This document shows positions 1 through 9,199 of a stretch of DNA of 64,000 nt, one piece after another. Under the pieces are notes generated by a model. That model made no database searches and was not told the origin of the DNA. It worked only from the letters and a program-made list of their open reading frames with translations. Made by a program: the position numbers and the translations under genes. Origin of the DNA: Saccharopolyspora gloriosae (lineage in GTDB: Bacteria; Actinomycetota; Actinomycetes; Mycobacteriales; Pseudonocardiaceae). The number at the start of each line of letters is the position of its first letter. Within the stretch, counting starts at the first letter, position 1. The DNA is taken from NCBI RefSeq assembly GCF_022828475.1, contig NZ_CP059557.1, forward strand, positions 1,550,001 to 1,614,000. The letters run 5' to 3'.

Positions 1-524
1 GGCCGCTGGTTCTCGTAGGCGTACTCGATCTCGTTGGTGGCGGTCATGGTGAACAGTCCGCCGCCGAGCTGCTCCTCCAAGTTCAGTGAATCACCGGACC
101 TGGGCACCGAACCTTCGTTGAACACGCCGCTGTAGCAGCAGTCCAGCACGATCGCCTTCGACCCCGCCTCGCATTCGGTGATCATGCGGTGCACGATCTG
201 CGCGGGCACCGCCGTGGAGTAGGGCAGGGTCACATCGGTGTTGCCCGCGGCGAAGAACAGCTGGTTGTCGTCGTTCTTGATGCCGTGGCCCGCGATGTAG
301 AGCAGCACCACGTCGTTCGGCTCGCACTTGCGGAAGTGTTCCTCGATGCCCCGCTCGATCGCGGCCTTGGTCTCGTTGACGAGGACGTGCACCGTGTCGT
401 ACCCGCCGATGTCCTGCTCGGCGAGCAGCTCCTTGAGCTCCCTGGCCTCCTCGGTCGTGCGCAGGCCGCGCAACCGCGGATCGAAGTAGTCCGAGGTCGC
501 GACCAGCAGCGCGTATCTCCGCAC
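1..524 (-). CDS. Caspase-fold (C14-like) protease, 3' end beyond window
   Basis: The frame reads from a GTG at 524 to the left edge, giving 174 N-terminal residues. The start of the caspase/metacaspase p20 domain is clear. A first strand (RRYALLVATSDY) is followed by the catalytic histidine in LLYIAGHG (His80) and the catalytic cysteine in IVLDCCYSG (Cys129/Cys130; the second C aligns with the metacaspase nucleophile). The protein probably cleaves peptides after activation. It lies two codons after the stop of the EACC1-like gene and in the same frame. An in-frame TGA at 531-533 fixes 524 as the first possible start. Downstream domains (NTPase, WD40, TPR or others) cannot be seen, so its target and regulation are unknown. 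The family call is firm; the conflict-system role is inferred. Confidence 0.85.
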   Translation of the reverse strand, partial: MRRYALLVATSDYFDPRLRGLRTTEEARELKELLAEQDIGGYDTVHVLVNETKAAIERGIEEHFRKCEPNDVVLLYIAGHGIKNDDNQLFFAAGNTDVTLPYSTAVPAQIVHRMITECEAGSKAIVLDCCYSGVFNEGSVPRSGDSLNLEEQLGGGLFTMTATNEIEYAYENQR

Positions 525-530
525 CCCGGG

Positions 531-896
531 TCACGCGCCGCTCTCGTCGGTCATCCGCTGCAGTGCCGATTCGATCTCCGAGCTCTCGGTACCCGCGTCC
601 GCGCGCAGTTGCAGCTCCCCGGCCCGCAGGGTGACCGCTCGATGCCGGTTGCGCTCGAGCCAGCCGGTGAGCACGGAGGACACGGTGGTGGCCGTCCCCG
701 CGCCCAGCGACCCGATGATCAGCAGTTCCGCCAACTGCGCACCGGCGCCGAGGCTGTCCGGCGGTGGCGTCTCCCGCACCCGGTGCACGGCCAGGCCGTG
801 GACCTTCTTCAGGTTGAACTGCATCAGGTGAGTGGCTCGATCAAGCCGCTCCGGTGCCATGTCCGGTGCTTCCAGCGCGACGCGAATTTCAGGCAT
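531..896 (-). CDS. EACC1-like small membrane protein (effector-associated constant component)
   Basis: This 121-residue protein has an N-terminal alpha/beta segment (residues 1-45), one hydrophobic helix (about 54-80, LAELLIIGSLGAG) ending in WLERNRHR, and a short polar tail containing RAGELQLRAD. That architecture matches my recollection of the EACC1 family, small proteins found beside caspase-like or trypsin-like effectors in predicted NTP-dependent conflict systems of multicellular bacteria. The ATG is preceded by GGGAG. The caspase-fold gene follows directly and is probably cotranscribed. EACC1 proteins are thought to couple a signal to the effector, but no mechanism is established. The family assignment rests on pattern and context and needs a profile search. 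Confidence 0.6.
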   Translation of the reverse strand: MPEIRVALEAPDMAPERLDRATHLMQFNLKKVHGLAVHRVRETPPPDSLGAGAQLAELLIIGSLGAGTATTVSSVLTGWLERNRHRAVTLRAGELQLRADAGTESSEIESALQRMTDESGA

Positions 897-1047: not shown

Positions 1048-1082
1048 CGTGCACGGGCCGCTCGCGCCACGGCCCGTGCACG
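1048..1082 (-). terminator. Perfect 13-bp-arm hairpin, leftward terminator
   Basis: CGTGCACGGGCCG (1048-1060) and its exact reverse complement (1070-1082) flank a 9-nt loop. On the minus strand the stem is followed by TTTC, which suits a leftward terminator. It would insulate the EACC1 promoter from upstream transcription. Confidence 0.6.
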
Positions 1083-1799: not shown

Positions 1800-3509
1800 A
1801 TGAGCATGACCCGTCAGGTGGTACCGGTAGCCTTGCGCGACGTGCCTTCCGCGGTCGCGACAGCCCCGCCTCGACCCGCTCAGGTCGAGCCGGTGCAGAT
1901 CCAGCATCTCGCCGAGACAATCGGCGCCCGGGTCATCAACGTGCCTGGTCACAACCCTGGTGATGGGTCGGTGACCGGAGCGACGTTGCGAGCTCAGCAA
2001 GTCCGGGCCGGTGACCTGTTCGCCGCGCTGCCCGGAACCAGAGTGCACGGTGCCGACTTCGCCGCCGACGCGCTCACCGCCGGTGCCACCGCGGTGCTCA
2101 CCGACCAGGCGGGCGTGGACCGCGTCGCCCTGCTCGAACACCCGCGGGTGCGGGCCGGTGAGGTCGCGCTGCTGGTGCACGAGAATCCGCGCGGCGTGCT
2201 CGGCTCCGCCGCCGCCCGCATCTACGGCGACCCGTCGCAGCGGCTCACCATCCTCGGCGTCACCGGCACTTCCGGGAAGACGACCACCAGCTACCTGCTG
2301 GAGTCGGCGTTGCGCGCCGCCGGGCACACCACCGGACTCGTCGGCACCGTGGAGACCCGCATCGCGGGCGAACGCCTCGACAGCGCGTTCACCACACCCG
2401 AAGCCCCCGACCTGCAGGCGCTGCTGGCGGTGATGGTCGAGCACGGCGTGACGCACGTGCCGATGGAGGTCTCCAGCCACGCGCTCGCGCTGGGCCGCGT
2501 CGGCGGCACCCGGTTCGCGGTCGGCGCGTTCACCAACCTCTCCCAGGACCACCTGGACTTCCACCGCGACCTCGACGACTACTTCCAGGCGAAGGCGCTG
2601 CTGTTCGACGGCCGCTCCGAACACGAAGTGGTGTGCGTCGACGGGAGCTGGGGGCAGCGGCTCGTCACCGACGACACGATCACCGTGTCCACCACCGGCG
2701 ACGCGTCCTGGACCGCGACCGACGTCGAAGCGTTCCCCACCGGCGAGCAGCGCTTCCGCGCACACGGCCCGGACGGGACGCTGGACGTGCGGCTGCGGCT
2801 GCCCGGGCCGTTCAACATCGCCAACGCGCTGCTCGCCGCCGGGGTGCTCACCGCGGCCGGCGTGCCCGCGGCGGCGATCGAGCAGGGCCTCGCCGAAGTG
2901 GACGTGCCCGGCCGGATGGAACGCGTCGCGCTCGGGCAGGACTTCACCGCCGTGGTGGACTACTCGCACAAACCCGGTGCCGTCGCCGCCGTGCTCGACG
3001 CGGCGCGCGCGCAGGTCACCGGGGCGCACATCGGTGGCCGGGTGCTCGCCGTGCTCGGCTGCGGAGGCGACCGGGACGTCGCCAAACGGCCCCTGATGGG
3101 GGAGGCCGCCGCCCGCCGATCCGACCTGCTCATCGTCACCGACGACAACCCGCGCAGCGAGGCTCCCGCCGACATCCGCGCAGCCATGCTCGCCGGGGCG
3201 CTCGACGTGCCCGAAAGCGAACGTGGTGAGGTGATCGAAGCAGGCGATCGGCGGGAGGCCATCGCCGAGGCGGTGCACCGCGCCCGCGTCGGAGATGTCG
3301 TGGTGATCGCGGGCAAGGGGCACGAAACCGGCCAGGACGTGGCCGGAGTGGTGCACCCGTTCTCCGACCGGGACGAGGTGGCGGCGGCGCTGCGGCGCAG
3401 GCTCGACACCGGCAGCGCCCGGATCGCCGAGAGCGGTGGGGGAACGCAGAGCTCGAGGGAGCCGACGTCCCCGGCCGGTGGCCGGGGCAGCAACGAGGAG
3501 GCAAGGTGA
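1800..3509 (+). CDS. murE: UDP-MurNAc-tripeptide synthetase MurE
   Basis: MurE adds the third stem-peptide residue to UDP-MurNAc-L-Ala-D-Glu in the cytoplasm. The ATP loop GVTGTSGKTTT is near residue 153. The DNPR motif (near 447) is the signature for meso-diaminopimelate selectivity, as expected for a meso-DAP actinomycete. The chosen ATG at 1800 gives 569 residues. The frame stays open upstream, but that part has no MurE homology pattern. The roughly 35-residue N-terminal extension before the Mur domain is longer than in E. coli MurE. The stop overlaps murF by 4 nt, so it is the first visible gene of the dcw operon. Confidence 0.95.
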   Translation: MSMTRQVVPVALRDVPSAVATAPPRPAQVEPVQIQHLAETIGARVINVPGHNPGDGSVTGATLRAQQVRAGDLFAALPGTRVHGADFAADALTAGATAVLTDQAGVDRVALLEHPRVRAGEVALLVHENPRGVLGSAAARIYGDPSQRLTILGVTGTSGKTTTSYLLESALRAAGHTTGLVGTVETRIAGERLDSAFTTPEAPDLQALLAVMVEHGVTHVPMEVSSHALALGRVGGTRFAVGAFTNLSQDHLDFHRDLDDYFQAKALLFDGRSEHEVVCVDGSWGQRLVTDDTITVSTTGDASWTATDVEAFPTGEQRFRAHGPDGTLDVRLRLPGPFNIANALLAAGVLTAAGVPAAAIEQGLAEVDVPGRMERVALGQDFTAVVDYSHKPGAVAAVLDAARAQVTGAHIGGRVLAVLGCGGDRDVAKRPLMGEAAARRSDLLIVTDDNPRSEAPADIRAAMLAGALDVPESERGEVIEAGDRREAIAEAVHRARVGDVVVIAGKGHETGQDVAGVVHPFSDRDEVAAALRRRLDTGSARIAESGGGTQSSREPTSPAGGRGSNEEAR

Positions 3510-7769: not shown

Positions 7770-9199
7770 ACGCCGTGGCCACCTCCACCGCCACCGCGCG
7801 CCGCCCGCGCCGCACCGCCCGGCCCACCGGGATCGCCGCGATCACCACGCCGCTGACCGCGTGGCTCACCCGGCCGCTGGCCTCGTTCCACCTGCTGCTC
7901 GCCGTGTTCGGGCTGCTCACCGTGTTCGGCCTGGTGATGGTGCTGTCCGCGTCCAGTGTGGACTCGTTCACCAGCGCCGGATCGTCCTACGACATCTTCA
8001 TCCGCCAGGTCATCTACTGCGCCGCCGGACTGGTGCTGTTCTACGGCGCGCTGCGACTGCCGGTGCGGCAGATGCGCAAGCACAGCCTCACCGTGTTCGG
8101 CGGCTGCCTGCTGCTGCTGGCGCTCGTGCTCACCCCGCTGGGCTCCGAACGCAACGGCGCGCAGAGCTGGTTCGTGTTCGGCGGCATCTCCTTCCAGCCC
8201 GTCGAATTCGCCAAGATCGCCTTCGCGCTGTGGGGCGCGCACGTGCTGGTCACCAAGCGCGGGCTGCTCGCCCAGTACCGGCACCTGCTGGTCCCCGTGG
8301 TGCCCGCCGCGATGATGATGTTCGCGCTGGTCATGCTCCAGCCCGACCTCGGCTCCACGATCACCCTGTTCATCGTGCTGCTGGCGCTCATGTGGTTCGC
8401 CGGGGCGCCGCTGCGGCTGTTCGGTGTGTCCGTGCTCGGTGCCGTCACCGCCGCCGTCGTGCTCGCGATGGTCGCGCAATACCGGATGGACCGGATCACC
8501 ACCTTCCTCGACCCCGCCTCCGACCCCACCGGGCGCGGCTACCACGCCCGGCAGGCGCTGTTCGCGCTCGCCGACGGCGGCATGTTCGGACGCGGCCTCG
8601 GGCAAGGCTGGTCGAAGTGGCAGTACCTGCCCAACGCGCACAACGACTTCATCTTCGCCGTGATCGGCGAGGAACTCGGCTTCGTCGGCTGCGCCGTGGT
8701 GCTGATCCTGTTCGGCACCACCGCCTACGTGGGCATGCGCATCGCCGCCCGCAACACCGACCCGTGGATCAGGCTCGTCGCCGCCACCCTCACCGCCTGG
8801 CTCGTCGGGCAGGCCGCGATCAACGTGGGCTACGTGGTGGGCCTGCTGCCGATCACCGGGCTGCCGCTGCCGCTGATCTCCTCCGGCGGTTCGTCGGTGG
8901 TGACCAGCATGCTGGTGTTCGGACTGCTGGCGAACTTCGCCCGGCACGAACCCGAAGCGATCGCCGCGCTACGGTCGCTCGGACCAGGCCGCGTCGGGAA
9001 ACTGCTGCGGCTGTCCACACCCGAGCCTTACCGGCCGCCGGCGAAACGCCGCCCGGCGCGCGCCGCACCTTCGACTCGCCCCGGTGCGCGCAGCGCAGGG
9101 GCACAGCCGACCCGCCGGGGATCACCGGACACGCGGAACCGCACGGCGGCCCGCGGCAAGACCGGATCCCGGGCACAGACACGAGGAGGACACCGTTGA
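7766..9199 (+). CDS. ftsW: Septal SEDS glycosyltransferase FtsW
   Basis: This polytopic SEDS-family protein (477 residues, about ten TM helices) polymerises lipid II at the septum together with a class B PBP. Visible motifs are [10 protein letters not shown] after the first helix, the [11 protein letters not shown] segment with the catalytic-type aspartate, [18 protein letters not shown], and [13 protein letters not shown] near the end. The Arg/Pro-rich tail of about 60 residues is probably cytoplasmic. The GTG start overlaps the murD stop; a TTGA overlap links it to murG. Confidence 0.95.

Follow-up and report, generated by a model that had tools for sequence, protein, structure and literature searches.

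A caspase fused to an EccC-type secretion motor beside an EACC1-like gene in Saccharopolyspora gloriosae and its relatives, and the relationship of its motor part to the EccC of the host lineage

The closest described counterpart of the locus examined here is System 4 of Kaur 2020, a predicted EACC1-caspase conflict system of actinobacteria which, according to the main text of that paper, consists of an EACC1 gene on the 5' side and, 3' of it, a gene for a caspase that is extended at its C-terminus (PMC7159879). The present locus shares this layout, but the description of System 4 names no EccC or FtsK module and the terms "type VII" and "T7SS" are absent from its main text, whereas in the present case a conserved motor of the EccC type forms the extension, and it follows the EccC of the host lineage. 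An EccC fusion may already be drawn in the figures or supplements of that publication (PMC7159879). In the accessible part of the description of an McrBC-type operon, a motor of the T7SS type has likewise been recruited into a predicted conflict system; however, there the motor is a separate gene, and a caspase fusion and conversion with the resident motor are absent. The MoxR-vWA ternary systems, in the accessible text of the papers that describe them (PMC7159879, PMC8195603), also combine FtsK-superfamily ATPases, some of them inactive, with predicted conflict systems, but their FtsK protein stands in effector position and is linked to vWA, and a fusion of an EACC1-type caspase with a four-module EccC is not described. 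With EccC itself, as represented by the protein of Thermomonospora curvata (PDB 4nh0), the fusion shares the A1-A2-A3 order, the ATP sites, the ATPase3 domain, the sequence and the fold; in contrast to EccC, it is without the membrane/stalk half, carries a caspase and an additional module (A0) in front, has a sometimes degraded ATPase1 and is not accompanied by adjacent T7SS genes. Among the literature matches listed for caspases combined with EccC or type VII secretion, neither the fusion nor its conversion with EccC was reported. The two-gene EACC1-caspase system is known as a prediction, and the evolution of its EccC part is the new finding.

The window analysed here is a stretch of 64,000 nucleotides covering positions 1,550,001-1,614,000 of the single-contig 6.88-Mb genome of Saccharopolyspora gloriosae (genome G000, contig C1). 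The features that are discussed below are as follows:

1..524, minus strand: residues 1-174 of the 1,392-residue caspase-EccC fusion (from the ORF and domain profiles)
135..137, minus strand: codon of the catalytic Cys130 (DCCYSG) of the caspase
285..287, minus strand: codon of the catalytic His80 (AGHG) of the caspase
531..896, minus strand: EACC1-like gene, 121 aa (from a PF19953 match, conserved position and strand, and hydropathy)
1048..1082, unstranded: GC-rich hairpin upstream of the EACC1-like gene, on the murE side (97% identity over 35 bp to the hairpin of genomes G004 and G005)
1800..3509, plus strand: murE, the right-hand neighbour (Mur ligase domains; named from sequence and position, start approximate)

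The caspase ORF starts with a GTG at position 524 of the minus strand, 6 nt past the stop of the EACC1-like gene on the same strand, and from this spacing the two genes are probably cotranscribed. The adjacency of the pair, which an earlier note on this DNA had pointed out, was confirmed and is not due to chance, since an EACC1-like ORF lies directly upstream in 41 of 46 caspase-EccC loci (43 from the GTDB scan described below, the window's locus and two relatives). Such ORFs are present in 42 of these loci, in 41 directly upstream on the same strand and in one downstream, and the remaining four were unclustered. The assignment of the small protein to the EACC1 family is less straightforward: it matches Pfam PF19953 with an E value of 2.1e-4, but its score of 21.7 bits misses the gathering cut-off of 23.6. 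Because of this score we refer to the protein as EACC1-like, although 14 of 23 such proteins from these loci match PF19953 at E<=1e-3 (best 4.9e-8). Its best 19-residue Kyte-Doolittle mean is moderately hydrophobic (1.61 at residue 58), and a single membrane segment at about residues 58-76 is possible.

The caspase residues encoded by positions 1-524, 174 in number, are only the start of a fusion of 1,392 aa. With the left flank fetched, the caspase ORF continues into four FtsK/EccC-type ATPase modules, whose limits, by our own cuts, are ~1-250 for the caspase, ~271-525 for A0, ~561-815 for A1, ~866-1115 for A2 and ~1136-1392 for A3. Caspases are defined by a His/Cys dyad. The earlier identification of a caspase-fold protease with His80 in AGHG and a Cys in DCCYSG is upheld by the scores against Pfam C14 (53.5 bits, cut-off 21.4) and NCBIfam NF047832, "caspase, EACC1-associated type" (147.6 bits, cut-off 140), the latter model giving 163.9 and 158.4 bits for the fusions of loci L063 and L058. 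The dyad, H80 and C130 in the window's protein, is kept in all six fusions that were found by profile (G000, G014 and L151-L154, L153 being the L066 gene); its conservation in the 43 loci of the scan is biased, as the motifs were part of the search patterns.

The remainder of the fusion is of EccC type. The FtsK/SpoIIIE profile matches in four stretches (357 bits), and TIGR03925 EccCb, which covers ATPase2-3, gives 921.6 bits (cut-off 346.6) as compared to 809.7 for the genome's own EccC. The EccCa profile, in contrast, reaches only 490.2 bits, under its cut-off of 509.2, and its best stretch is the ATPase1 part (392-672 of 673), whereas the genome's own EccC aligns to EccCa 1-672. The L063 fusion exceeds the EccCa cut-off by score (623.5), yet its best stretch starts at 390. 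The nearest solved structures by sequence are those of EccC of Thermomonospora curvata, and A0 is most similar to A2 (38% identity). A hydropathy rule detected no transmembrane segment in the window's fusion, a result that says little because 4 of 12 true EccC proteins were also negative. A structural model of residues 1-813 of the ortholog L049 (pLDDT 82) matches EccC (4nh0) with an E value of 1.6e-31 and, in its front part, human paracaspase MALT1 (TMt 0.67); because its pTM is 0.41, the packing of the domains is unsure. In PADLOC 16 models were matched, of which the best were mad8 (224.9 bits), SspH (114.4) and caspase (51.2); the mad8 and SspH matches fall on the ATPase modules, and no system was assigned. 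The protein is a caspase joined to a T7SS motor that is without the membrane/stalk half of EccC and has the caspase and A0 in its place.

The fusion gene (L004:14347-18525 in the fetched left flank) ends at G000:C1:1546346, 3,655 bases left of the window start. Its next neighbour on the left, across a gap of 367 bp, is the convergent ftsI gene (named from its transpeptidase and PBP dimer domains), and on the right of the unit murE is divergent and ~903 bp away. Left of ftsI there are in turn ftsL (named by position only), rsmH and mraZ, followed by a MoxR-type AAA-DUF58-TgpA/transglutaminase cluster, and 11 ORFs of L004 were profiled. The suggestion that more components of a conflict system lie to the left of the pair has to be revised accordingly: no NTPase or sensor gene adjoins it in this flank, where the ATPase modules are fused to the caspase and ftsI comes next. 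A MoxR-type AAA gene does occur (L004 ~7869-8930), but ~5.4 kb, with ftsI-ftsL-rsmH-mraZ among them, lie between it and the end of the fusion gene, and no sign tying its cluster to the EACC1-caspase pair was seen. What stands of the proposal of a predicted conflict-system pair is its fit to System 4. Two further features were observed in this flank. The ftsI-fusion gap contains, at L004:13985-14340 (G000:C1:1545984-1546339), an interspersed repeat of ~300 bp composed of a long inverted-repeat hairpin and a variable run of short hairpins, which looks MITE- or REP-like and has at least 97 matches in the genome, a count based on the scoring of 40 out of 361 first-look candidates. Transposase genes (IS481-type and an IS21-type pair) are located at L004:447-1502 and L004:2033-4068, further left than the TgpA-DUF58-MoxR cluster.

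The unit was correctly placed next to the division cluster by the earlier note, since it lies between ftsI and murE in four of the six genus genomes (G000-G003, own included). In G004 and G005 the unit is absent and the ftsI-murE gap is 753 bp. In these two genomes a hairpin is found 25 bp 3' of ftsI, and its counterpart in G000 is the hairpin at 1048-1082. It probably represents an ftsI terminator, and its position marks where the unit sits. The simplest account of this arrangement is that the unit was inserted just behind ftsI, the alternative being loss. No caspase was found at murE or ftsI of four further genomes of the family (L045-L048), in each of which one of the two genes was recovered. 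Neither ftsI nor murE was found in the flanks of 42 other fusion loci, and for this reason the location of the unit at the dcw cluster looks incidental.

To determine how widespread the fusion is, GTDB genomes were scanned with the caspase and A0 as the query, which gave 443 relatives, of which 80 were kept. In 43 of these (L049-L090 and L125) the caspase is followed by EccC-type modules in one ORF, several of the loci being cut by contig ends, and the hosts belong to Saccharopolyspora, Goodfellowiella, Amycolatopsis, Saccharothrix, Nocardia and Micromonospora together with one Micromonosporaceae MAG. A0 was not seen in the other 37 loci, three of which are truncated at the end of a contig. 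Of 150 genomes sampled evenly across the order (own included), 6 had a continuous match of caspase and A0 at E<=1e-40. Caspase matches at E<=1e-3 occur at five further places in the S. gloriosae genome, at ~743, 2,691, 3,498, 4,193 and 4,936 kb of G000:C1. Several individual loci are also of note. Three Streptomyces EACC1-type caspases among the 37 loci without A0 (L092, L115 and L119) carry a single A1-like stretch, which in L092 is best matched to FtsK, and perhaps represent a separate capture of a pump-type motor. In Nocardia vaccinii (L085:7983-10208) the fusion ends at 741 aa inside A1, with the contig continuing. In two other members of the family the unit is decaying: at L029:8420-9967 EACC1 is accompanied by a 367-aa protein in which the first 110 caspase residues are joined to A3 only, and at L030:5395-8217 the caspase is cut near its Cys and its second half is gone, with A1-A3 kept.

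Among the gene clusters listed, no third gene besides EACC1 is conserved across genera. A SCO2521-SCO2524 set upstream of EACC1 and the fusion is shared by eight Nocardia loci only; at L068:2669-7526 the family genes SCO2524, SCO2523 (ParA-like), SCO2522 and SCO2521 precede the EACC1-fusion unit on the same strand, and related ORFs were seen in eight Nocardia loci. No T7SS gene recurs beside the fusion loci. In the S. gloriosae genome the WXG100 genes are located elsewhere, none having been found close to the unit, and the EccC nearest in sequence to the window's fusion is encoded at G000:C1 578.3-582.4 kb, ~0.97 Mb from the fusion. Other products of that EccC locus are EccD, an Rv3446c-like protein and WXG100 proteins, a pair of which is encoded at ~586.1-586.7 kb.

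The phylogenetic trees indicate two different histories for the two halves of the protein. In the tree of the caspase domain (83 rows), from which the six paralogue rows L010, L011, L013, L016, L023 and L024 (wrong ORF picks with long branches) had been left out, 46 fused caspases were split from the 37 others by one branch with a support of 91, which was not starred; the fused caspases need two changes with the six rows and one change without them. The A0 modules formed one side of a branch that separates them from A2 with a support of 100 (23 A0 and 49 A2 rows). Based upon these trees, the caspase and A0 look to be of single origin. A different result was obtained for the A1-A3 part. When 25 fusions were analysed together with 34 EccC proteins (839 columns), the starred (well-supported) branches of the tree forced at least seven label changes, and a single group of fusions was recovered in 0% of 200 bootstrap trees. 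Constraining the EccC part to one fusion clade cost 1,037 log-likelihood units and was rejected with p 5.8e-104 (49 rows), and under a mixture model one fusion clade was also rejected (p 2.6e-47, 35 rows). One clade for the Micromonospora fusions alone was weakly rejected (p 0.029).

The grouping of individual fusions accords with these tests. The Goodfellowiella fusion forms a pair with the EccC of its own genome, three Micromonospora fusions cluster with EccC proteins of that genus, those of Nocardia likewise with EccC from Nocardia, and the window's fusion groups with Saccharopolyspora-type EccC, including that at G000:C1 578.3-582.4 kb, with a support of 100/100. The EccC-like part of the fusion thus groups with the EccC of the host lineage and is not of one origin. 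These results apply to rows that were hand-picked after the full tree (23 of 44 fusions with 26 of 52 EccC, 25 of 44 with 34 of 60, and 14 with 21), and the search that supplied the EccC rows was itself based upon similarity to the motor of one fusion. The fast-evolving L055, L058, L076 and L086 are part of the full tree and of the residue counts given below and are absent from the hand-picked trees; fusions shorter than 1,200 aa (L053, L054, L056, L080, L085 and L090) were excluded from both the EccC-part trees and the residue counts.

Comparison of fusions with the EccC of the same genome revealed long conversion tracts in 3 of 11 genomes. The longest run identical to the own EccC is 233 nt in M. 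noduli, 191 nt in Goodfellowiella and 134 nt in M. lupini, and runs of such length were obtained in 0 of 300 codon shuffles in each case. A run of 48 nt in N. neocaledoniensis was likewise not equalled (0/300), whereas that of 50 nt in M. acroterricola (7/300) does not stand out, since 4 of 24 control pairs did at least as well, and a conversion signal is absent from 6 of the 11 same-genome pairs. The controls involved EccC from other genomes: not one of the 24 pairs had a run that the shuffles failed to equal, four had counts of 1, 3, 5 and 6 of 300, and the longest run was 67 nt. In M. noduli the DNA identity between the fusion and its own EccC is 73-86% in the windows of A1 and 88-100% in A2-A3, whereas that between this fusion and its sister fusion L069 is 87-92% in A1, 78% in the linker and 79-88% in A2-A3; the two species' EccC genes, when compared with each other, diverge uniformly (88-95%). 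This mosaic is most simply explained by a transfer of sequence from EccC into the fusion. The M. noduli tract may be an assembly error, as it comes from draft-genome contigs; those of M. lupini and Goodfellowiella are separate. The window's fusion shows 53-63% identity per module to its nearest EccC, and any copying in it must therefore be old.

The catalytic residues of the motor provide further information. In ATPase1, all 60 EccC proteins have an intact set of Walker A Lys, Walker B Asp and catalytic Glu, as compared to 32 of 44 fusions. Among the 12 altered fusions Asp is replaced by Glu in six, and the other six, including that of G003 from the window's own genus, show clearer losses. The Walker A Lys is kept in A0 and A2 of all 44 fusions and in A3 of 43 (Arg in one). 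From these residues it seems that nucleotide binding is needed in the fusions and that hydrolysis by ATPase1 is dispensable. In EccC the signal peptides of substrates bind to a pocket of ATPase3, according to the accessible part of the work describing it (PMC6954902). When ten positions of this pocket were mapped by means of a PDB alignment, agreement with the nearest EccC of the same genome was 8/10 for the window's fusion, 10/10 for M. lupini and M. noduli and 5/10 for G003, whereas second EccC paralogues agreed at 3-7 of the ten positions (six genomes compared). This agreement is weak evidence because the pocket residues follow overall similarity.

The re-copying of the motor into the fusion in some relatives suggests a built-in tripwire for the T7SS. 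We tentatively propose, as a reading that falls somewhat short of probable, that the fusion is a caspase which carries a refreshed look-alike of the T7SS motor as its sensor, is activated on a partner shared with the motor and sets off a response that protects or kills the cell; a function of the unit in immunity or cell death is a prediction. The EACC1-like protein would hold the fusion at the membrane, where its EccC-like part would mimic the working motor and meet the same substrates or attackers. The candidate partner would be a normal substrate, for instance the C-terminal signals of WXG100 proteins in the pocket of ATPase3, or a T7SS that is out of balance; alternatively, it could be a phage or competitor factor aimed at EccC. 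Rosenberg (2015) reportedly found that substrate binding drives the multimerisation of EccC. In the fusion, binding of the partner might cause an EccC-type multimerisation that brings the caspase domains together for proximity activation in the manner of an apoptosome, and cleavage of the protein itself or of cell proteins would then lead to that response. What would count in such a mechanism is the binding of ATP and not translocation, and the fusion would have to stay similar to the working motor so that the same partner meets it. The fact that most fusions keep the catalytic residues of ATPase1 counts against the idea of a tripwire. A more specific proposal, which we regard as possible and rather doubtful, is that of an integrated decoy, in which the caspase acts as a guard whose secretion-motor bait is kept in register by repeated conversion with EccC, the motor being the trigger of a programmed response. 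In the integrated decoys of plant NLR proteins a copy of a targeted host protein is fused to a defence protein; the principle is the same, but the proteins and the kingdom are different, and here the attacker or ligand is hypothetical.

Other explanations of these observations have to be considered. As the main alternative, the fusion could be an ordinary member of System 4, in which the EccC-like part is one variable C-terminal effector of the pump type, freed by caspase autoproteolysis after EACC1 senses membrane stress. The main text on that system speaks of up to 50 alternative C-terminal domains and proposes their auto-proteolytic release (PMC7159879), the Streptomyces L092 caspase does bear a different, FtsK-like module, and conversion between similar genes may be neutral, with 6 of 11 same-genome pairs lacking a tract. 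This explanation is weakened by the occurrence of the same multi-module architecture in 43 of 80 loci from several families (the query being caspase and A0), by the altered ATPase1 catalytic residues of 12 of 44 fusions, residues that belong to the pump itself, and by the seven or more label changes forced by the EccC-part tree, and we consider it unlikely, if well within reason.

We regard it as somewhat less likely still that the fusion is an auxiliary component of the T7SS, which joins or replaces EccC and whose caspase processes substrates as a cytoplasmic counterpart of mycosin. Its EccCb score is like that of true EccC (921.6 bits, own EccC 809.7), the ATPase3 pocket positions are identical in two species (M. 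lupini and M. noduli), and conversion would keep the hexamer interfaces; but no T7SS gene is a recurrent neighbour, the membrane half of EccC is missing (EccCa 490 bits, under 509), ATPase1 is degraded in some fusions and ~0.97 Mb separate the fusion from the nearest own EccC. That the unit is a regulator of cell division or of the envelope tied to the dcw cluster, as its place between ftsI and murE in G000-G003 might suggest, is very improbable, and a function deduced from this position was rejected: G004 and G005 are without the unit there, and the 42 other fusion loci, flanked by neither gene, are elsewhere.

The proposal of a caspase with a look-alike of the T7SS motor as its sensor gives an otherwise uncharacterised caspase system a specific and testable partner, namely the T7SS motor of the same cell together with the WXG100 proteins that are its substrates. 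Should the proposal hold, this would be a defence protein that updates its bait by copying the machine that it guards, and to our knowledge no earlier case of this kind is known from bacteria. It would also suggest that ligand-driven ring assembly can serve as a switch for bacterial caspases, in effect an apoptosome made from a secretion motor.
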